Source of the DNA: a virus
IMG/VR virus record: IMGVR_UViG_3300046522_000170
Coordinates: 1-34,007 of that record
DNA length: 34,007 nt
Strand: one strand, 5' to 3'
The position numbers and the translations under genes were made by a program. Position 1 is the stretch's first letter. Each line of letters starts with the position of its first letter. The notes under the pieces were generated by a model that saw only the letters and a list, made by a program, of their open reading frames with translations, made no database searches and was not told the origin of the DNA. Positions 19,362 to 34,007 of the stretch are shown piece after piece.

Positions 19362-20710
19362 GCGAGATGCGGATCGAGCTTCCCCCGAAGCTCATCCCGG
19401 TGTTTCAGGGGCGTGCGGACGTTCGCGGCGCATATGGCGGTCGCGGCTCCGGCAAGACCCGATCGTTCGCCACCATGGCGGCTGTGCAGGGCATGCGGTT
19501 CGGCCAGGCGGGCATTCGAGGGCAGATCCTCTGCGCCCGCCAGTTCATGAACTCGCTGGACGACTCCTCGCTGGAGGAGGTCAAGCGGGGGATCGAGGGC
19601 GATCCGATGCTGTCGCGGTACTGGAACGTCGGCGAGAAGTTCATCAAGAGCCATGACGGCCGGGTGTGGTTCTCCTTCGCCGGTCTGGATCGCAACATCG
19701 GATCGGTGAAGTCGAAGGGCCGCATCCTGCTGTGCTGGGTCGATGAGGCCGAGCCGGTGACAGATACCGCATTCGACACACTGGGCCCGACCCTTCGCGA
19801 GGAGGGCGACGAATGGAACGCTGAGCTCTGGATAACCTGGAACCCGGCGCGCAAGTCGGCGGCAGTTGAGAGGTTCCGGCGCTCGACCGACCCGCTGGTG
19901 AAGGTCGTCGAGATCAACTGGCACGACAACCTGAAGTTCCCTGAGGTGCTGAAGCGTAAGCGCCTGCGGGACTTCGAAGAGAAGCCCGACCAGTACGCCC
20001 ACATCTGGGACGGTGCCTACCTCATCGCGGTGGCCGGCGCGTATTTCGCGAAGGACCTGGCCGCGGCGAAGGAGCAGGGCCGGATCAGCCGGGTTGCTGC
20101 CGACCCCCTGATGACGCTGCGGGCGTACTGGGACATCGGCGGCACCGGCGCCAAGGCTGACGCATGCGCCATCTGGATCGTCCAGTTCATCGGGCGCGAG
20201 GTGCGCGTGCTGCGTTACTACGAGGCTGTCGGCCAGCCCCTGGCGACCCACGTGGACTTCCTGCGGCGGAATGGCTTCAGCAGCGCCATGTGCGTGCTGC
20301 CTCACGACGGCGCGGCGCACGACAAGGTGTTTGCGGTCAGCTACGAGAGCGAGCTGCGCAAGGCGGGGTTCGAGGTGAGGGTGATCCCGAACATGGGCCA
20401 GGGCGCGGCGATGACCCGCGTCGAGGCTGCGCGCCGGGTGCTCCCCAGCGTCTGGTTCAACGACACACCGGTGAAGGACGCCCGCAAGGGCGAAGACGCC
20501 GAGGCCTTGGACGCGACCGAAGCGGGTCGCGATGCGCTGGGCTGGTATCACGAGAAGCGCGACGAGAAACGAAACATTGGCTTCGGCCCCAACCACGACT
20601 GGGCCAGCCATGGCGCTGACTCGTTCGGGATGATGGCCGTGGACTACCTGAGCACCAACCACGACGCGGCGGATCACTCCGCCCTCGACGACTACACGAC
20701 GGATTACTGA
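19358..20710 (+). CDS. terL: Terminase large subunit
   Basis: A 450-residue packaging motor. The ATPase part has Walker A GGRGSGKT (27-34) and Walker B ILLCWVDEAE (about 123-132), with the coupling region WITWNPAR near 165. The nuclease part starts at YWDIGGTGAKADACAIW (about 257-273), whose first Asp is a metal ligand, and a later acidic cluster (EDAEALDATEAGRD). It is of the PBSX/P22-like Terminase_3/6 type, expected to package from a concatemer. The start overlaps TerS by ATGA. Confidence 0.96.
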   Translation: MSEMRIELPPKLIPVFQGRADVRGAYGGRGSGKTRSFATMAAVQGMRFGQAGIRGQILCARQFMNSLDDSSLEEVKRGIEGDPMLSRYWNVGEKFIKSHDGRVWFSFAGLDRNIGSVKSKGRILLCWVDEAEPVTDTAFDTLGPTLREEGDEWNAELWITWNPARKSAAVERFRRSTDPLVKVVEINWHDNLKFPEVLKRKRLRDFEEKPDQYAHIWDGAYLIAVAGAYFAKDLAAAKEQGRISRVAADPLMTLRAYWDIGGTGAKADACAIWIVQFIGREVRVLRYYEAVGQPLATHVDFLRRNGFSSAMCVLPHDGAAHDKVFAVSYESELRKAGFEVRVIPNMGQGAAMTRVEAARRVLPSVWFNDTPVKDARKGEDAEALDATEAGRDALGWYHEKRDEKRNIGFGPNHDWASHGADSFGMMAVDYLSTNHDAADHSALDDYTTDY

Positions 20711-22728
20711 TGGCCGATAAGAAGCGAGATGGGCTGGAGCTGATGCTGCAGCGCAGGGATCTTGCGTCCGACGGTTGCCGGGACCTGTACGACCAGGCCA
20801 GTGACGACGTGAAGTTCGTGACCGTGCCCGGCGCCCAGTGGGACCAGAAGCTGAAGGCCCGCCGCGGCGACCGCCCGACCTACGAGTTCCCGAAGCTCGG
20901 CCCGCACTGCCGGCAGGTCGTGAACGAGATGCGCCAGGGCCGGCCGCAGGGCAAGGTGCGCGGCACGGAGGAGGGCGATAAGGGCCTGGCCGAGATCATG
21001 CAGGGCATGTGCCGCAACATCGAGTCGGTGAGCAATGCCGACCAGGCGTATGACATCGCCTACGACTTCGCGGTGAAGGGTGGTGTGGGCTATTGGCGCA
21101 TCTGCACCGACTACGCCAATCAGGACGATTTCGAGCAGGACATCTACATCAAGCCGATTCGGAACCCGTTCTCGGTAAAGCCAGACCCGGCTGCCATCGA
21201 GATTGACCGTTCTGACATGGAGTTCTGCTTCGTTGAGGAGCTGGTGTCGAAATCCGAGTTCGAGCGCCGGTGGCCGGATGCGAGCGTCAGCGACTGGGAA
21301 GACGACAGCAACTGCACAGACTGGCGCGAGAAGGGCCAGGTCCGCATCGCGGAATACTTCTACAAGGAGCCCAAGAAGGTCGAAATCTGGGCCCTTTCGA
21401 CCGGCGAGGTGGTATCGGTCGAGGAGCTGGAGGGCCGCTTCAAGCAGGCTGGCGTCGACATCAGCGAGATTGGGCTGGAGGACGCGCTGGCGCAGCAGGG
21501 CGTGACCGTGGAGAAGCGCCGCGAGGTGCAGTCGCACGTCGTCATGTCGCGCCTGACCAATGGGCACGAATGGCTGGAGCCGGCTCACGAATTCCCGTCG
21601 AAGTTCATTCCGGTGGTTCCGGTCTACGGGAACATCACCACGATCGACGGCCAGGACTACTGGTTCGGCATGGTCCGCCAGAGCAAGGACCAGCAGCGCC
21701 TGCACAATGTGCACCGCACTGCTGCCATTGAGGCGGTGGCGAAGTCTCCGAAGGCCCCGTTCATCGTCAAAATGAGCTGGATCAAGGGCCTTGAGCGGTT
21801 CTGGAAGAACGCCAACGCGGAGGACTACCCCTACCTCCCGGTGAACGATGAGGCGAATGGGATCCCGGTACGTGCTCAACAGGCAGAAATTCCCGCCGCG
21901 CTGCTGCAGCTGGGTGCCCTCGATAACGAGGACATCAAGGCCGGCACCGGCATGTACAACCCCAGCCTGGGCGCTCAATCCAACGAAACGAGCGGCCGGG
22001 CGATTCTGGCCAGGAGCCAGCAGGGCGCCACCGCAACCTTCAACTACATCGACAACCTGGGCTACGCGATTCGCCACACCTACCGGATCCTGGGCGACAT
22101 GATCCCGCGCGTGTACGACACGCCGCGCGCGGTGCGCGTACTCGGACCAGATGGCGGCGAGAAGTGGAAGAAGCTGTACCAGGAGGTCACCGACCCGGCT
22201 ACCGGCCAGAAGGTCGTGCTGAACGACATCAGCAAGGGCAAGTACGACTACACCGTTACGGTGGGGCCGAGCTTCGCCACGCAGCGCATGGAGGCCGTGG
22301 ACGCCTTTACCAGCATGCTTGGCCAGATGGGGCCGGGATTGCCGCCGGCAATCGCCGCGCTCATGTCCTACAGCGCCATCAAGAACATGGATCTCCCGGG
22401 TTCGGAGGAGGTCGACGCCGCATTCCGCAAGCTGCTGGTCGCGCAGGGCGCGCTGCCGCCGAAGGAGGGCGAGGAAGCTCCGCAGCCGCAGCAGCCTGAC
22501 CCGAAGGCCATGGCGGACGCGAAGAAGTCCGATGCCGATGCCGAGAAGTCCGCTGCCCAGGCCCAGCTCTACCAGGCACAGACCCTGTCGCAGAACATCG
22601 AAAACGCCACAGGAATGGCGTTGCTGAGCGCGAGTGCGGCACCACCCCAATTTCCGGCAATGCCGGTCGATCAGCCGCCACAGGGCGGCTTTTTTGTATC
22701 CGAAACCCCAGGCGGATTCCCGACCTGA
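20710..22728 (+). CDS. P22-like portal protein
   Basis: A 672-residue portal, the dodecameric ring through which DNA enters and leaves the head. Typical P22-portal stretches include KLGPHCRQVVNEMRQGRPQG, IAYDFAVKGGVGYWRI and SNETSGRAILARSQQGATAT. A Gln/Ala-rich helical region near the C-terminus (AEKSAAQAQLYQAQTLSQNI) may form the barrel. The last 18 codons pass through a strong terminator hairpin and read PPQGGFFVSETPGGFPT. The start is TGATG on the TerL stop. Confidence 0.95.
   Translation: MADKKRDGLELMLQRRDLASDGCRDLYDQASDDVKFVTVPGAQWDQKLKARRGDRPTYEFPKLGPHCRQVVNEMRQGRPQGKVRGTEEGDKGLAEIMQGMCRNIESVSNADQAYDIAYDFAVKGGVGYWRICTDYANQDDFEQDIYIKPIRNPFSVKPDPAAIEIDRSDMEFCFVEELVSKSEFERRWPDASVSDWEDDSNCTDWREKGQVRIAEYFYKEPKKVEIWALSTGEVVSVEELEGRFKQAGVDISEIGLEDALAQQGVTVEKRREVQSHVVMSRLTNGHEWLEPAHEFPSKFIPVVPVYGNITTIDGQDYWFGMVRQSKDQQRLHNVHRTAAIEAVAKSPKAPFIVKMSWIKGLERFWKNANAEDYPYLPVNDEANGIPVRAQQAEIPAALLQLGALDNEDIKAGTGMYNPSLGAQSNETSGRAILARSQQGATATFNYIDNLGYAIRHTYRILGDMIPRVYDTPRAVRVLGPDGGEKWKKLYQEVTDPATGQKVVLNDISKGKYDYTVTVGPSFATQRMEAVDAFTSMLGQMGPGLPPAIAALMSYSAIKNMDLPGSEEVDAAFRKLLVAQGALPPKEGEEAPQPQQPDPKAMADAKKSDADAEKSAAQAQLYQAQTLSQNIENATGMALLSASAAPPQFPAMPVDQPPQGGFFVSETPGGFPT
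22673..22695 (+). terminator. Intrinsic terminator inside the 3' end of the portal gene
   Basis: Perfect stem AGCCGCC / GGCGGCT (22673-22679 and 22684-22690), loop ACAG, followed at once by a run of T. It lies 33 bases before the portal stop codon. Scaffold, coat and all tail genes lie downstream, so most late transcripts must read through it, which fits an antiterminated polymerase. Confidence 0.85.
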
Positions 22729-22767
22729 CCGCATCGGCCCGGACTGGCCGAAACCCGAGAGGACGTC

Positions 22768-23631
22768 ATGAGCACTGAAGGAAACGCCCTGGACCAGGGC
22801 GGCGGCGAAGCGCTGCCTGCAACCCCGCCCCGCAACGACGCTGAAGCCGCTGTCATCGAGCAGACGGCCACGCAGGAAACCGACCAGGCCAAGGAGGCCG
22901 AGGCGAAGAAGGCGGAGGAGGAGGCCGCAAAGCGCAAGAACCGCACCAGCCAGTACATCGACCGGCTGAAGGGTGACGCCGACACGGCGCGCCGCGAAAA
23001 CGCCGAGCTGCGCAAGCGACTCGACGCGATCGAAACCCGCTTCCCGAAACAGGAAGCCAAGCCGCCCACTTTCGAAGGTGCGAACTTCGACCCCGAAGAG
23101 CTGGCCCGCCAGACGGCCCGCTACGAGCTCGAACAAGCCCGGAAGACGTGGGACGAGCAGCAGAAATCCGAGGCTGCAGCCCGCTCGGAACAGGAAAAGG
23201 TGATGGCCTACCAGGGCCGCGCCCAGCAGTTCGCGGTGTCGAACCCCGACTTCGAGGAAGTCGTCGGCTCGATCCCGGTGCAACTCCTGCCCGCAGAGCT
23301 GCAGAAGGCGATCATGGCCCACGAGAAGGGGCCGGAAATTGCCTACAAGCTCGCCCAGAACGAGGACGAGCTGTTCCAACTGGCCTCCACCCGGCCGGAC
23401 CTGATCGAGCTGGCACTGACCCGCTACGCATCGCGCCTGGAAGCAGCGCCCGCGACCGCCGAGCCCCCGCTGGCTCCGGTCCTTGCTCCGACCCAACCGC
23501 AGAAACCCATCTCGCAGGCTCCCGCCCCCGCGCCGCGCGTCGGCGGTCGTTCTCCCGTGGAAACCCCGCCGGAGAAGCTGACCGATGACGAGTGGTACGC
23601 GAAGGACCGTGAGCTGCGCCGCAAACGCTGA
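22768..23631 (+). CDS. Scaffolding protein
   Basis: A 287-residue, highly charged, mostly helical protein. The N-terminal half is Glu/Lys/Ala-rich and coiled (EAEAKKAEEEAAKRKNRTSQ). The middle is helical (YELEQARKTWDEQQKSEAAA). A Pro/Ala-rich linker follows, and a short basic C-terminus (DDEWYAKDRELRRKR) is of the kind that binds coat subunits in P22 gp8. Position between portal and coat is that of P22 gene 8. GAGAGGA precedes the ATG. Confidence 0.88.
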   Translation: MSTEGNALDQGGGEALPATPPRNDAEAAVIEQTATQETDQAKEAEAKKAEEEAAKRKNRTSQYIDRLKGDADTARRENAELRKRLDAIETRFPKQEAKPPTFEGANFDPEELARQTARYELEQARKTWDEQQKSEAAARSEQEKVMAYQGRAQQFAVSNPDFEEVVGSIPVQLLPAELQKAIMAHEKGPEIAYKLAQNEDELFQLASTRPDLIELALTRYASRLEAAPATAEPPLAPVLAPTQPQKPISQAPAPAPRVGGRSPVETPPEKLTDDEWYAKDRELRRKR

Positions 23632-24911: not shown

Positions 24912-25160
24912 ATGGATTACCCCCGAATGATCTACCTCGGCGGCGATACGTCCGCCGAGTACCGCATCGTGGCGGACGCGGAAGAGCTGGCAGCCGCGGC
25001 GAAAGACGGCTTCCTGCCGCATGACCACAAGGGAGCCGCCCCGAAGAAAGCCGCAGCCGACCCGGAAGCCACTGCCGCGCCGGCAGACCCGGACGCTGAA
25101 GCGACCCCGGCTCCTGCCACGCAGAAGAACAAGGGCGGTCGCCCGAAGAAGGCCTCCTGA
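24912..25160 (+). CDS. Small protein after coat (82 aa)
   Basis: An 82-residue protein: an N-terminal folded part (MDYPRMIYLGGDTSAEYRIV, then ADAEELAAAAKDGF) and a long Pro/Ala/Lys tail that ends KNKGGRPKKAS, similar to an AT-hook. TGGAGC precedes the ATG. P22-like phages often carry a small gene here; a head-decoration or DNA-binding role is possible, but there is no direct evidence. Confidence 0.75.
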   Translation: MDYPRMIYLGGDTSAEYRIVADAEELAAAAKDGFLPHDHKGAAPKKAAADPEATAAPADPDAEATPAPATQKNKGGRPKKAS

Positions 25161-25161
25161 C

Positions 25162-25575
25162 ATGACGGCCGTTGCTCAGATCGTCCGTGACGCGCTGCAG
25201 ATCCTGCGCGTTGTCGATGCCAACGAGGCGCCGGAGGCAGAAGACGAGCAGGACGCTATCCGCTCGCTCAACCTGATGATGCGCGCCCTCGAGGCTGACA
25301 GCCTGAGCCTCGGCTGGTCCGATGTTTCCACCGGCGCAGACGAGATCCCGATTCCGCCCGAGAACGAGGAGGCGGTGACCTACAACCTGGCCAAGCGGCT
25401 TCGCGGCCGCTACGGCGTGGCCATGGATGAGGATTCCCTGGAGATCGCCCGGCAGGGCATGGCCTCCCTATCCGCCCAGGTGGCCACCGCCGATTACGCG
25501 CGCCTCGAATACCCGGACCTTCCGGCCGGGCAGGGCCAGCGTGTCGGCTCCTGGCGTGACGGGTTCTCGAACTGA
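25162..25575 (+). CDS. P22 gp4-like tail accessory (head-completion) protein
   Basis: A 137-residue helical protein. AVAQIVRDALQILRVVDANE, DAIRSLNLMMRALEADSLSL and EAVTYNLAKRLRGRYGVAMD are the pattern of the gp4 family, which binds under the portal after packaging and extends the tail. Position between coat and gp10-like gene is that of P22 gene 4. The ATG at 25162 follows the preceding stop by one base; it ends on a TGATG overlap. Confidence 0.88.
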   Translation: MTAVAQIVRDALQILRVVDANEAPEAEDEQDAIRSLNLMMRALEADSLSLGWSDVSTGADEIPIPPENEEAVTYNLAKRLRGRYGVAMDEDSLEIARQGMASLSAQVATADYARLEYPDLPAGQGQRVGSWRDGFSN

Positions 25576-27974
25576 TGCGCGCCCAGCCCGTTGACCTGAT
25601 CGGCGGCTTCTACACCGACGACGCGCTGCCATGGGCGCGGCAGGACACGGTGAACTGGCTGCCTGTGGCGGCGGAAGTGGCCGGCACTCTCACGGTGAAG
25701 TACCTCAAGACGCCGCCGGGTCTGAAGCCGTATCAGAACGTCGGCACCGGGCCGATTCGCGGTGTGCACGACATGGAGGGCGTGCAGTTCGTCGTGTCCG
25801 GGCGCTACCTGTACCGGATCTCGCCGGCGGGTGTCGGCATCCAGGTCGGGGTGATCCCGGGCGTCGGCCGCGTCAGCATGAACCACAACCAGTTCAAGAC
25901 CGGGTATCAGCTACTGGTCGAAAACGGGCTGGGTGGCGGCGGGTACGTCTACGACTCCACCACGCAGCTGATGTCGCGCATCACCGACCCTGGCTATCCG
26001 GGGTCGATCTCGTCGGACTACCTGGACTCCTATTTCCTGGGTGTCGAGCCGAAGGGCCGGTTCTGGTTCCACTCCAACCTGGCCGATGCGACCGACTTCA
26101 ACACGCTGGACCGCTACGAGTCGGAGGCTTCGCCTGACCGCATTGTCGGCCTGGCCGTGAGCCAGTTCGAAGTGGTGGTGTTCAACCAGCGCACGATCGA
26201 GTTCTTCTACAACAGCGGCGCTCAAACCGGCACGTTCCAGAACCGCCGGCAGACCATCACCCGCGGCTGCGCTTCCCGGCACACCATCGCCAAGCTGGAT
26301 AACACCCTGTTCTGGCTCGGTGACGACGGCATCGTGTACCGCATGGCGGGCTACTCGGCCCAACCGGTGTCCACCGGACCCATGCACCGCGCCTTTGCTG
26401 GCCTGAACTGGGCCGAGGCATCGGCCTTCGTGTGGGAGGACGAGGGGTTCAAGGTCTACTACCTGACCTTCCCCGACGGGCGCACCTGGGGCTACGACGT
26501 GGTGTCGGGCCTGTGGACCCGCCGCGAGTCGTACGGCCTGGACCGCTGGCGCGTCGCCAACACGGTGAAGTGGGCCAGCAAGTGGTATGCCGGCGACTAC
26601 CGCGGCGGCCAGCTCTGGGAGCTGAACTGGGATTACGTCCTGGAGGGCGACCAGGAGTTCGTCTCCACGCGCATCTCGCCGGTCATGTCCGACAACCAGT
26701 CGCGGCTGATCGTGAACTCGGCCGAGCTGATCTTCGACACCGGCCAAGGCCCGCTCACCGAGCCGATCGCATTCCCGATCCAGCCTGATCCGCCCGCCAT
26801 TTCCGGTGATGCGCCCAATGGCATCACCGGGTTCCCCTACGGGCCGTATGCATACACCATCACCGCTGGAAGCAACCCGATCGTGTCCGTGAAGGTCGTC
26901 TCGGGCGCGCTCCCGGCAGGGATGGCCCTCAGCAATGCTGGGGTGCTCAGTGCCACCATGCTCACGGAGAACTCGGAAAGCACCTTCACGGTGCGGGTCA
27001 CCGATTCGGTCGGGATGTACGCCGACATCCAGGACAAGATCACGGTCCGAGTCGCAATCGTTGGCGACGTGTTCCAGGTGAACCTCTATACGGGCAATGG
27101 GGTCCAGCCCCGCGCTCTAACTACCTTGGACTTCAGTCGGGGCGGCTCGTACCTGGTGCGGCCGCGCGCAGTGGGTTGGTCACACATGATGTGGGCGAAT
27201 GCTCCTGGCCCTGCGAACATGAAATCCTTCGCCGGATCGGCCACGGAAGGCCCATCAATAAATCAGATCACAGCCAATGGTGTAACGATCAATACGGCAC
27301 TCCTGAACACCCTTGGGACCAACTATTTCGGATACTCGTTCGCCAACTTCGCGAAATTCGCCAAGACGGTCACCTGGGTCGGCGACGGGAACACAACAAA
27401 GGACATTGCGCACGGGCTTGGCATCGTGCCCGGAGCGATCCTTGTCATTCATCCGGCGAACGCCAACTACATCGACATGTACCACAGGAGCCTGGGGCCG
27501 ACTCAGTACCTTCCGATGAACAGCGGGAACACGCTGACAACGACCCCGACTGCGTGGGGCGACACCGCACCCAATGCGACTACGTTCCGCGTAGGGAGCC
27601 GGTACAACGCCACATCAGTCGTTTACACCGCGCTTGTTCTTGCGCATGACGACACTGCAACAGGGATGATTCAGTGCGGCAGCTACGTTGGAAATGGGGC
27701 GGCGGCGGGCCCGGCTGTTTCTCTCGGCTGGCAACCGCAGATGCTGCTGGTCAAGGCAATTACCGGCGGAGCCACCCAATTCATGACTGACACTACGCGA
27801 AGCCCTGGGTTCACGGGGAACGATGAGCTCGCGTACATTTCGGTAAGCAACAACGTAAGCAACAATTTCAACCTGTATGAACTCATCCCAGGCGGGTTCC
27901 GCCCTGGCAGCACCTTCAGCGAGTCCAATGCCAATGGCGCAACCCATATCTACATTGCGGTGAGGGCGCCCTGA
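25575..27974 (+). CDS. gp10-like tail protein fused to Ig-like and DUF7483-like modules
   Basis: 799 residues; P22 gp10 is 472. Residues 1-395 are gp10-like (beta-propeller tail protein that plugs packaged DNA): LPVAAEVAGTLTVKYLKTPP, GRFWFHSNLADATDFNTLDR, FWLGDDGIVYRMAGYSAQPV. At about 390 (NSAELIFDTGQGPL), where gp10 should go on to its last ~70 residues, a putative-Ig domain starts (PPAISGDAPNG... VSGALPAGMALSNAG, about 404-490). A ~300-residue module follows (VTWVGDGNTTKDIAHGLGIV; IQCGSYVGNGAAAGPAVSLG; ending THIYIAVRAP) that I recall as the DUF7483 fold of phage structural proteins. Codon use over 27060-27970 is visibly less GC-biased. The missing gp10 end appears in the next gene. Confidence 0.85.
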   Translation: MRAQPVDLIGGFYTDDALPWARQDTVNWLPVAAEVAGTLTVKYLKTPPGLKPYQNVGTGPIRGVHDMEGVQFVVSGRYLYRISPAGVGIQVGVIPGVGRVSMNHNQFKTGYQLLVENGLGGGGYVYDSTTQLMSRITDPGYPGSISSDYLDSYFLGVEPKGRFWFHSNLADATDFNTLDRYESEASPDRIVGLAVSQFEVVVFNQRTIEFFYNSGAQTGTFQNRRQTITRGCASRHTIAKLDNTLFWLGDDGIVYRMAGYSAQPVSTGPMHRAFAGLNWAEASAFVWEDEGFKVYYLTFPDGRTWGYDVVSGLWTRRESYGLDRWRVANTVKWASKWYAGDYRGGQLWELNWDYVLEGDQEFVSTRISPVMSDNQSRLIVNSAELIFDTGQGPLTEPIAFPIQPDPPAISGDAPNGITGFPYGPYAYTITAGSNPIVSVKVVSGALPAGMALSNAGVLSATMLTENSESTFTVRVTDSVGMYADIQDKITVRVAIVGDVFQVNLYTGNGVQPRALTTLDFSRGGSYLVRPRAVGWSHMMWANAPGPANMKSFAGSATEGPSINQITANGVTINTALLNTLGTNYFGYSFANFAKFAKTVTWVGDGNTTKDIAHGLGIVPGAILVIHPANANYIDMYHRSLGPTQYLPMNSGNTLTTTPTAWGDTAPNATTFRVGSRYNATSVVYTALVLAHDDTATGMIQCGSYVGNGAAAGPAVSLGWQPQMLLVKAITGGATQFMTDTTRSPGFTGNDELAYISVSNNVSNNFNLYELIPGGFRPGSTFSESNANGATHIYIAVRAP

Positions 27975-28201
27975 TGGCCGACACCGACCACTACGCCTTC
28001 ATCGACTACAGCAAGGACGGCGGGCGCAACTGGTGCAACCGCAAGCAGCGCTCCATCGGCAAGGTGGGGCAGTACGAGCAACGGATCAAGCTGATGCGCA
28101 TGGGCACCGGCCGCACCTGGATCTTCCGCATTTCCGTCTCCTCGGCCCGGAAGCGCGACCTGCTCGGCGCCGTGGTGTCGGTAGAGCCGACGGAGGGCTG
28201 A
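27974..28201 (+). CDS. Detached C-terminal segment of the gp10-like tail protein (75 aa)
   Basis: A 75-residue protein beginning on a TGATG overlap. HYAFIDYSKDGGRNWCNRKQ, then GQYEQRIKLMRMGTGRTWIF, can be aligned by eye with the last ~68 residues of P22 gp10 as I remember it, which has a strand with TTDG, then YDKRVLWKRVGRIR. In gp10 that part follows directly on the segment matching residue ~390 of the upstream protein. The simplest reading is that a module entered the gp10 gene and the displaced end is now translated separately and joins the fold in trans. That it is a coding gene is likely; the trans-assembly is inference. Confidence 0.75.
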   Translation: MADTDHYAFIDYSKDGGRNWCNRKQRSIGKVGQYEQRIKLMRMGTGRTWIFRISVSSARKRDLLGAVVSVEPTEG

Positions 28202-28752
28202 TGTCTCCCATCATCGTTGACGATGCAATCCCGGATGCGCAGGCAGTCCGGGAGGCGGGCCTGCGCGCCCAGTACGTGGATTGGCCCGCCCACGACGGCG
28301 AGGTCTACAAGCGCGTGTGCCTGGAGCCTGTGCCGGGCCTGCAGGAGGCTATTGAGGCGCGCTTGGGCCCGGTCGAGATGCTGGGCATGGGCTACCGGCT
28401 CAACTTCAACGGCGAGCTGCCCAATGCAGCCATCCATTCGGACATGGGCTGGGGCACGCACGCCGCGGTGCTGTACCTGAGCGAGGGCGAGGGCGGAACC
28501 GCCTTCTGGAAGCACTTGGCCACCGGCGCGCACCGGATCGACCCGGGCGACATGGAGCTGTTCGAGCAGATCAAGGACGACTGGGACGCCGCCGATCGCT
28601 GGGAGCAGATCGCCCTGGCCGAGATGAAGCTCGGCCGCCTGCTGATCTACGAATCGGCGCTGTTCCACAGCCGCTGGCCGTTCAAAGCCTTCGGCACCGA
28701 CTACGACACCGGCCGCCTGATCGCGGTTGCCTTCTTCACGCCGAGGGGCTGA
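28201..28752 (+). CDS. Fe(II)/2-oxoglutarate oxygenase-like protein (DUF6445-like)
   Basis: A 183-residue protein with the residues of an Fe(II)/2OG dioxygenase: H79-x-D81 (IHSDMGWGTHAAVLYLSEGE), a distal His156 (FHSRWPFKAF) and Arg172 (GRLIAVAFFTP) for 2-oxoglutarate. It would hydroxylate or oxidise a protein or nucleic-acid target. I recall the DUF6445 family as similar. It is overlapped by TGATG at both ends, between the gp10 fragment and an acetyltransferase, within the virion operon. No such gene is present in P22. Confidence 0.78.
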   Translation: MSPIIVDDAIPDAQAVREAGLRAQYVDWPAHDGEVYKRVCLEPVPGLQEAIEARLGPVEMLGMGYRLNFNGELPNAAIHSDMGWGTHAAVLYLSEGEGGTAFWKHLATGAHRIDPGDMELFEQIKDDWDAADRWEQIALAEMKLGRLLIYESALFHSRWPFKAFGTDYDTGRLIAVAFFTPRG

Positions 28753-29201
28753 TGACCACCATTCGCAAAGGAACTCTGGCCGACGTGCCGGAGATCGTCC
28801 GCATGTCCGCAGCTTTCTACCCGACCACGCACTACGCGCAGTGGTGCGACATGGACGAGGACACGGTGGCTGATCTGGCCACGAACCTCATCGAGAACCA
28901 CATCTTCCTGGTCGCCGAGAACGAGGGGCGGCTGGTGGGGATGGTCGGCATCTTCCTGGCGCCGTTCCTGTTCAACCGCCACGCCTGTTTCGGCGTAGAG
29001 GTCGTGTGGTGGGTCGACCCGGCCGCGCGCGGCTCGCACGTCGCCGCATCCCTGCTGCAGGCCATTGAGCAGCCCGCGCGCGATGCCGGCGCCGACCGCA
29101 TCCAGATGGTCCACATGCCCAACAGCCCGCCGCAGGCAGCTGCTCTCTACGAGCGCCTGGGCTATTCCCGCTCCGAAGTGAGCTACACCAAGGACATCTG
29201 A
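28752..29201 (+). CDS. GNAT-family N-acetyltransferase
   Basis: A 149-residue GNAT protein. Visible are the N-terminal TIRKGTLADVPEIVRM, FLVAENEGRLVGMVGIFLAP (strands 2-4), VEVVWWVDPAARGSHVAASL with the acetyl-CoA pyrophosphate loop in a degenerate RGSHVA form, and the end ALYERLGYSRSEV. It should transfer acetyl groups to an amine. Substrate unknown; it may act on a virion or host protein. Translationally coupled to the oxygenase (TGATG). Confidence 0.88.
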   Translation: MTTIRKGTLADVPEIVRMSAAFYPTTHYAQWCDMDEDTVADLATNLIENHIFLVAENEGRLVGMVGIFLAPFLFNRHACFGVEVVWWVDPAARGSHVAASLLQAIEQPARDAGADRIQMVHMPNSPPQAAALYERLGYSRSEVSYTKDI

Positions 29202-33743: not shown

Positions 33744-34007
33744 ATGACCGCCTTCCGCTTCTACAACCCGGCCCCCGTGTTCTTCGACCTGCTCGGGCTG
33801 AAGCCGTGCGCCGGCGGGAGCCTGACGTTCTACGACAAGGGCACCACCACGCCGAAGATGACGTGGAGCGACCAGGGCATGACCATCCCGAACACCAATC
33901 CGGTGGCTCTGGACAGCGCTGGCCGGTCGAACACGAACATCTGGCTCGACGGCGGTTACACGGTGGTGCTGAAGGATTCGGCGAACGTCGTGATCTTCAC
34001 GCGCGAC
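33744..34007 (+). CDS. Tail fibre/tailspike, N-terminal part (cut by window edge)
   Basis: 88 codons are visible. FYNPAPVFFDLLGLKPCAGG, SLTFYDKGTTTPKMTWSDQG and NPVALDSAGRSNTNIWLDGG, then YTVVLKDSANVVIFTRD, are the typical N-terminal head/tail-binding domain of tailspikes and fibres (pattern GGxLxFYxxGTTTP...NPVxLDxxGR). It should attach the receptor-binding protein to the gp4/gp10-type tail. CCCGGAG precedes the ATG. The receptor-binding part is outside the window. Confidence 0.85.
   Translation, partial: MTAFRFYNPAPVFFDLLGLKPCAGGSLTFYDKGTTTPKMTWSDQGMTIPNTNPVALDSAGRSNTNIWLDGGYTVVLKDSANVVIFTRD

Follow-up and report, generated by a model that had tools for sequence, protein, structure and literature searches.

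Background

The tail-tube protein of a phage is usually regarded as constant and its fibres as variable. In the nozzle proteins T7 gp12 and SU10 gp17, the platform, which contacts the adaptor, is formed jointly by N-terminal residues and the stretch that follows the propeller (PMC6702177, PMC9509320); in SU10, the fibre dock is an extension of propeller blade 1, and nozzle domains are placed between blades 2 and 3 (PMC9509320). In other phages, tail tubular proteins have been connected with receptors and with host range (PMC7241545, PMC10904470), and TTPB and gp10 are given as counterparts (PMC10386132). Exchangeable adhesin ends, in-frame nozzle insertions, frameshifted immunoglobulin-like (Ig-like) domains and split fibres are already known. 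Here we describe a gene of the P22 gp10 type in the virus record IMGVR_UViG_3300046522_000170, whose 34,007 bases were analysed as a whole and are called the window. The record carries P22-type genes and stops within a later gene. Its gp10 gene is broken in a loop of the platform domain, the two parts (gp10N and gp10C) lie in separate cistrons, and the gap holds a module of a kind that often differs between close relatives. We put at roughly 0.68 the probability that the platform is completed by two chains and that the gap is a socket for exchangeable cassettes, most likely serving host recognition.

Results

Two cistrons in the window share one gp10 profile

In the window, an open reading frame (ORF) encoding 799 residues (25575-27974) is followed by one encoding 75 (27974-28201), and the two meet in TGATG. 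We compared both with PHROG_578, the profile of gp10-type head closure proteins (Hc3, 486 positions). Profile positions 1-402 fall on residues 1-394 of the longer protein (E 1.8e-107) and positions 408-472 on residues 8-73 of the shorter (E 1.2e-9), so that two cistrons tile one gp10 profile. An initial annotation of the sequence had placed the end of the gp10 likeness at about residue 395 and the missing gp10 end in the 75-residue gene starting on TGATG, and the profile agrees on both points. Pfam matched Phage_stabilise (PF11134) in the 799-residue protein, whose best match by sequence among solved structures was 9vyg_M (E 1.4e-20), the matches being gp10-type stabilisation or needle-head proteins. 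Solved-structure matches of the 75-residue protein were all non-significant (best E 0.67) and included the needle-head protein 7eeq_1 (E 1.1), near its C-terminus (residues 372-408 of 442). An Asp-box-like YSKDGGRNW stands close to the gp10C start. The gene order is that of gp10, directly after a gp4-like adaptor gene, whose ORF ends at 25575, the gp10N start, in another TGATG overlap. The whole gp10 fold is not encoded in one polypeptide in the window, where it is divided between two ORFs in a -1 frame relation; the locus is a split gp10 and not a standard one.

The initial annotation had also read, after the gp10 part, an Ig-like domain and then a module of about 300 residues with different codon use, and both were recovered. 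The Ig-like domain (residues about 401-490) was modelled at a predicted local distance difference test (pLDDT) score of 75-88 and aligns to relatives in which Pfam calls He_PIG, with 45% identity over 99 residues to L012 (relatives carry L numbers); Pfam reported no He_PIG (PF05345) in the window protein itself. Further along, DUF7483 (PF24299) matches residues 599-795 (E 7.1e-27, 94.8 bits against a cut-off of 27, profile positions 131-325 of 330). The distal module has PHROG matches in tail fibre and virion structural families, the DUF7483 part in a tail-fibre family. The GC content at third codon positions (GC3) runs from 0.91 in gp10N through 0.81 in the Ig part and 0.72 in the distal part to 0.96 in gp10C, and values like a codon adaptation index run from 0.76 through 0.62 and 0.47 to 0.81.

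The break falls in one loop of the platform

Aligning unsplit and split proteins places the break in a single short loop. The strand before it mostly ends D-T-G or a close variant, and YSKDGGxNW or a close variant comes after it. In 43 of 45 rows the last residue of the gp10N profile match lies at 389-398, and in the other two it is 379 and 404. At the break position the loop is 4-8 residues long in 13 of the 15 unsplit rows and has 15 and 45 residues in the remaining two. L034, an unsplit relative 48% identical to the window gp10N, gave a structure model with mean pLDDT 89 and a predicted template modelling score (pTM) of 0.89. This model matches P22 gp10 (8eap_D) with Z 39.0 and a root-mean-square deviation of 2.2 Å over 439 aligned residues at 21% identity (Foldseek, VIA-align), and other nozzle proteins were matched as well. 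On it the break maps to the loop 393-401, between strands 382-392 and 402-408 of the last domain.

The platform-plus-propeller fold was thus found for the unsplit protein; the model of the window protein (mean pLDDT 50) was too poor for a fold search and was confident just in part of the propeller and in the Ig-like domain. Its platform strands (residues 1-26 and 357-394) scored below 50, compatible with the absence of a partner. Judged by T7 and SU10, the domain that is broken would be the platform at the adaptor end, which would put the module on the side of the tail. It probably sits there and not at the tip, and the 'tail tip' placement proposed initially is doubtful.

Separately, the unsplit gp10 of L005 (L005:3998-5473, MW202483) carries its 45-residue stretch where others break, possibly an in-frame intermediate.

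gp10C is a separate cistron under purifying selection

Junctions were compared at 33 distinct split loci, 7 of 40 having been omitted as duplicates or as another layout; the gp10C start of L059 was placed by hand. The start codon is ATG in 31 and GTG in two, at -5 to +27 bases relative to the module stop (-1 in 10 loci, +2 in nine, -5 in three). Its frame relative to the module is -1 in 24 loci, +1 in six and the same in three; since all three relations occur, the halves are separate proteins. Matches of at least 4 bases to a Shine-Dalgarno (SD)-like sequence precede 22 of the 33 starts, compared with 22% of 518 control ATGs inside module regions (31 of 33 compared with 75% for at least 3 bases). 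gp10C measures 71-75 residues at 32 loci, and at the remaining one it is cut by the contig end. Of these gp10C genes 23 have equal length, and dS was usable for 184 of their 253 pairs. Over these pairs the ratio of nonsynonymous to synonymous substitution rates (dN/dS) has a median of 0.27 and a maximum of 0.50, which places gp10C under purifying selection. Its identities also track those of gp10N across 37 split rows (Mantel r 0.88, 0 of 2000 permutations).

The same split recurs in viral contigs and bacterial genomes

A scan seeded with an alignment of three sequences of the 75-residue family identified relatives on 50 viral contigs, out of 73 pattern matches, and on 3 bacterial genome contigs, out of 43. 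The bacterial contigs include Stenotrophomonas sp. BIGb0135 and [Pseudomonas] hibiscicola ATCC 19867, both with the split, and profile classification of the whole set returned unbroken as well as broken gp10 genes. Because this set was seeded on gp10C, the search was repeated with gp10N, using an 18-sequence alignment; the best 80 of 123 relatives plus the window gave 81 rows, which were not de-duplicated and share many contigs with the first scan. Among these rows, 56 are split, 17 unsplit and two have a glycosyltransferase-like ORF between the halves, leaving six without a visible gp10C. Five of the six reach the end of their contig; in the sixth, L173, only about 40 bases follow the module. 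As all six end too soon, gp10C is retained downstream in 58 of 58 informative broken gp10N genes. The recurrence of the split in 56 of 81 rows excludes chance. Uninterrupted relatives were found (L034 and others), and the first ORF of the broken genes showed no gp10 C-terminus in any case.

In the bacterial family of the genome carrying L058, 10 of 297 genomes matched PHROG_19101, a profile ending in gp10C (see below), and six of the ten, that genome counted, have the split. We take this family to be Xanthomonadaceae. Annotated phage records gave another picture. The 799-residue protein matches 97 of them somewhere, 50 of these 97 being among the matches listed. For gp10C, 31 records matched (E up to 1). 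Every one of them appears among the listed gp10N matches too, with no more than about 150 bases between its two matches, which leaves no space for a cassette of the sizes seen here. In both of the two records examined among these 31, gp10 is one ORF. Four more records with a gp10N match and no gp10C match have gp10N within one annotated gene that continues for about 70 to 95 codons.

Compared by eye with L002, the gp10N of L003 is interrupted by the lack of a short piece (L003:6440-6481). Other copies are intact, and the interruption is perhaps an assembly error.

The break has been gained or lost repeatedly

Trees of gp10N were built from the gp10C-seeded set with two phage and eight genome loci added, omitting L003 (interrupted), L038 and L054 (partial) and six duplicates. 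The resulting 55 rows (37 split, 15 unsplit, three of other layout) include some on long branches, and a second tree of 45 rows was made by removing ten long-branch rows. The split label needs six changes on the first tree, five of them forced by supported branches, and three on the second, all forced. A single clade of all broken genes, a hypothesis chosen after viewing the first tree, was rejected on the 45-row tree (approximately unbiased test, p 6e-5). On these trees the break appears as a character gained or lost repeatedly, gains and losses being indistinguishable. Since six distant rows and P22 gp10 are unsplit, the unsplit state is probably ancestral.

Modules at the break are exchanged between close relatives

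We compared 36 split rows with modules longer than 150 residues. Their distal parts fall into 15 clusters by a simple BLAST rule, a count to be taken only as a guide, with the boundary between Ig and distal parts placed arbitrarily at 105 residues for clusters and for distal GC3. L008 and L012 are 96% identical in gp10N and 100% in aligned gp10C; their Ig parts are related and their distal modules have no mutual BLAST match, that of L008 being DUF7483 and that of L012 propeller-like by eye (Pfam gave only DUF6242, below cut-off). The pairs L043/L045, L011/L020 and L049/L053 behave in the same way. Across the 43 pairs with gp10N at least 80% identical, distal clusters differ in 28. The window itself is closest to L002 in gp10N (81%), whose distal module does not match its own; the sole relative of the window's distal module among the rows compared is that of L008 (56% identity over 301 residues, while gp10N is 74% identical).

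DNA-level borders were compared in five pairs and are sharp. L008/L012 are about 97% identical up to the break, drop to background over the next 30-60 bases and reach 90% again at the gp10C start; the borders of L043/L045 and L049/L053 are similar. The drop begins about 100 bases before the break in L011/L020 and only after the Ig-like domain in L021/L022. Together with the cluster comparison, these borders identify the break as a cassette site at which, judged by sequence, modules are exchanged. The initial annotation had proposed that a module was inserted into the gene: the module does sit at the gp10 break, but instead of a one-off event there is a cassette site used repeatedly, by many unrelated modules and in several layouts.

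A cassette often consists of an Ig-like domain followed by a propeller-like, lectin-like or DUF7483 module. Pfam named He_PIG in the modules of 15 of 20 relatives scanned (14 above cut-off), the matches in distal parts, mostly below cut-off, being WD40-like, BNR, SPRY and laminin-G-like. Distal GC3 is lower than that of gp10N at 29 of 31 loci. A scan of viral contigs for DUF7483 alone gave nine stretches, none confirmed, and a literature search found no papers on this domain.

Diversification driven by a diversity-generating retroelement was considered and rejected. A reverse transcriptase (RVT_1, E 7.5e-17) was found in one of 17 records searched, a split-gp10 phage record (G002:C1:34581-35273), and none in the window record, which is itself incomplete.

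Other layouts occur at the same break

At L028 and L032, gp10N is followed by a glycosyltransferase-like ORF and then by a beta-rich domain (by eye) fused to gp10C; the glycosyltransferase-like ORF (L028:4937-5566) has Pfam matches below cut-off in L028 and was assigned by eye in L032. L030 has the same spacing. At L161, gp10N carries a 155-residue tail and precedes a 595-residue protein that joins GTA_TIM (E 1e-106) to gp10C. This second cistron (L161:6632-8419) matches PHROG_19101, a profile of 595 positions annotated 'unknown function', over positions 1-595 (1435.9 bits), and its GTA_TIM part shares 59% identity with a protein of Xanthomonas phage LucasX named 'gene transfer agent host specificity protein'. 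PHROG_19101 is therefore the TIM-barrel domain of a gene transfer agent (GTA) tail tip joined to gp10C, one layout of the broken gp10 locus. Some part of it is matched by 64 of 398 genomes in the phylum of G022, mostly positions 1-517 in long ORFs (many of about 1300 residues), with a few matching the gp10C part only.

In a further group, made up of L159, L169, L175 and L176 (nearly a copy of L175), repeats were seen by eye at the end of gp10N. The next ORF in L159, L169 and L175 matches the tail fibre Pf_3955 of the siphophage Pfeifenkraut at 25-29% identity (E 4e-19, 2e-16 and 2e-31, respectively, in a six-protein database). A further ORF in L159 and L169 matches the beginning of Pf_5001, which comes after Pf_3955 in Pfeifenkraut (42% and 48%), and in L159 this ORF is fused to gp10C. 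PHROG tests gave PHROG_4176 (tail fibre) for the middle ORF of L169 and PHROG_4950 (tail fibre) plus gp10C for the last ORF of L159. Pf_3047, which precedes Pf_3955 in Pfeifenkraut, likewise ends in repeats; it matches L169 weakly (E 5e-4, no composition correction) and gave no match to L159 or L175. The fibre-gene order of these loci is thus shared with a siphophage. In all four fusions described (L028, L032, L159 and L161), gp10C forms the C-terminal end.

Features and neighbouring genes

The coordinates of the window features are collected in Table 1. Two relatives have a weak Gp53-like_C match, below cut-off, in their PHROG_26190 genes.

Table 1. Coordinates of the split gp10 locus and of associated genes in the window
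Feature	Position	Strand	Basis
gp4-like head-tail adaptor gene, upstream; true start somewhere downstream of 25021	25021..25575	+	P22_Tail-4 PF11650, PHROG_637 head-tail adaptor Ad3
gp10N, residues 1-392: N-terminal platform strands, beta-propeller, first C-terminal platform strands (P22 gp10-type nozzle)	25575..26750	+	PHROG_578, PF11134, 9vyg_M
Cassette part 1: Ig-like (He_PIG-like) domain, residues about 393-497	26751..27065	+	Alignment to the first ~100 residues of many other cassettes; pLDDT
Distal cassette part with DUF7483	27066..27971	+	PF24299, PHROG tail fibre and virion structural families, GC3 0.72
Shine-Dalgarno-like stretch GGTGAGGG ahead of the gp10C start	27959..27966	+	Read from the sequence
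TGATG: stop of the gp10N-module ORF overlapping the gp10C start (-1 frame)	27972..27976	+	Sequence
gp10C: final 75 residues of the gp10 sequence as a cistron of its own	27974..28201	+	PHROG_578 profile 408-472; PHROG_19101 profile 528-595
Beginning of a separate, conserved PHROG_26190 gene (PHROGs function: unknown), probably for a tail fibre; truncated by the record end	33744..34007	+	PHROG_26190 positions 1-87, E 1.5e-33

Two genes, one DUF6445/2OG-oxygenase-like and one for a GNAT acetyltransferase, separate gp10C from a gp7-like ejection gene (window 28213-29201), and look-alikes of both (by eye) also follow gp10C in L028. In P22 this is the place of the needle gene. On the minus strand, a 930-residue open frame (window 20704-23496) runs antisense to the portal and scaffold genes; it is probably an effect of high GC3 and not a gene.

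Discussion

The initial annotation's central proposal, that a module lies at a break in gp10 and that the remainder comes from a second, closely coupled cistron, is supported by these results. In the working that we propose, the first cistron would yield gp10N, that is, the propeller and part of the platform, with a C-terminal cassette that in the window comprises the Ig-like domain and the DUF7483 module. The second cistron, its translation presumably coupled closely to the first, would supply the remaining platform strands, so that one fold forms from two chains in the assembled tail. The module would hang off the first chain, or sometimes the second, outside the tail. Because such a cassette would be tethered at one end only, the two ends of the insert need not meet, and modules of very different size and shape could fit. 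Conserved gp10N and gp10C may serve as recombination flanks for cassette exchange, and the cassettes would recognise host surface structures or mount fibres that do. Host recognition is the most likely role, in view of modules that resemble fibre or tail-tip genes, of their diversification among near-identical phages and of the receptor links of tail tubular proteins elsewhere.

Several observations weigh against this reading. The split label is strongly clustered on the 45-row tree (1 of 500 shuffles as low), so that the split state is mostly inherited and not freely flipped, and 15 of the 43 close gp10N pairs have the same distal cluster. In the window model, the propeller stretch 139-186 also has pLDDT below 50, which makes the low platform scores weak evidence of a missing partner. 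A separate PHROG_26190 gene, probably encoding a fibre, was found in 26 of 26 chosen records searched. The cassette therefore need not be the main adhesin and would be an additional device; the idea that the module substitutes for missing fibres was rejected on the same count. Finally, modules of many kinds occur, and sequence would not distinguish a role in protection or stabilisation.

This last point leads to an alternative that keeps the split and the two-chain platform and assigns the cassettes to virion stability, shielding or surface binding near hosts. We consider it unlikely but deserving of attention: Ig-like, lectin-like and SPRY-like folds bind many things, the PHROG_26190 gene is present throughout, and a glycosyltransferase-like gene lies between the halves in L028 and L032 (with Pfam matches for L028 only). 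The likeness of modules at the same site to fibre and tail-tip modules of other phages argues the other way, as does their diversification among otherwise near-identical phages, which recognition would predict. It is distinctly improbable that gp10C is a remnant or an independent small protein and that gp10N with its module replaces gp10 alone. The gp10N profile match does span the whole propeller region, but gp10C is kept in every informative broken locus, is under purifying selection, co-varies with gp10N, ends the fusions in L028, L032, L159 and L161 and corresponds to platform strands in the unsplit model.

We see very little room for frameshifting, readthrough or re-initiation yielding some full-length gp10N-module-gp10C protein. 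Stop and start overlap at many loci, at the offsets given above, and frameshifts of -1 and +1 are known to add Ig-like extensions to structural proteins of other phages (PMC5009743). The mixed frames and the range of offsets over the 33 loci speak against it, as do the fusion of gp10C to another protein in L161 and L159, the whole gene between the halves in L028 and the SD-like enrichment that gp10C starts carry of their own. A programmed frameshift in particular was rejected as unlikely given the mixed frames; the Ig part is in frame with gp10N and is not reached by a frameshift. An assembly or annotation artefact might be suspected where loci come mostly from uncultivated viral contigs and one gp10N, that of L003, is perhaps misassembled. 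It has next to no probability in our view and we count it as already refuted, the split being present in Stenotrophomonas sp. BIGb0135, in [Pseudomonas] hibiscicola ATCC 19867 and in six of ten matched genomes of the latter's family, with three frames and many different junctions.

Returning to a gp10 completed by two chains around an exchangeable cassette, its wider form would make the broken gp10 a general mounting socket, a lineage-wide obligate two-chain platform. Devices would be mounted on the first chain, on the second (as in the GTA tail-tip barrel joined to gp10C) or as fibre genes anchored by gp10N repeats, which would place siphovirus-type fibres on a podovirus nozzle. On this extension we are evenly divided. 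Contrary to the usual view of a constant tube and variable fibres, the variable part here would plug into a broken tube protein whose last part is a second cistron. This arrangement accounts for PHROG_19101, a PHROG of unknown function, provides a natural split site in a well-studied fold, suggests where host-range determinants might be sought in Stenotrophomonas and in related prophages, and opens to testing the way in which a virion acquires a new recognition device while keeping its tail.

Literature searches by title and start of abstract, with most subscription journals outside their coverage, returned no description of a split nozzle or gp10 gene. What we did not find described is a tail-tube gene with its break at a constant loop position, in which the two halves persist and the gap between them serves for exchange. 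The closest relative is the packaged DNA stabilisation protein (tail hub) P22 gp10 (PHROG_578, PF11134), with which the locus shares the profile, the order after a gp4-like gene and the fold of the unsplit relative; here two cistrons stand in its place, with a cassette between them. The T7 gp12 and SU10 gp17 nozzles likewise have, besides platform and propeller, additional domains for fibre docking or tail extension (PMC6702177, PMC9509320). These domains are in frame within one chain, whereas here the gene is broken in a platform loop and the insert is swapped between close relatives. Frameshift Ig-like extensions also place an Ig-like domain on a virion protein and have been moved between phages by recombination (PMC5009743); here gp10N reads in frame into the Ig-like domain, with which a larger cassette only begins, gp10C stands in any frame, and the recipient gene is cut. 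LtfA and LtfB of the T5-like phages DT57C and DT571/2 similarly form a two-protein tail adhesin with differing recognition parts (PMC4728585); there it is the fibre that is divided, and here it is the body of the tail tube protein. Exchange of tail-fibre C-termini likewise joins a conserved anchor to a swapped distal part (PMC10386132), but the anchor here is a tail-tube protein whose own last part is encoded past the exchange site.

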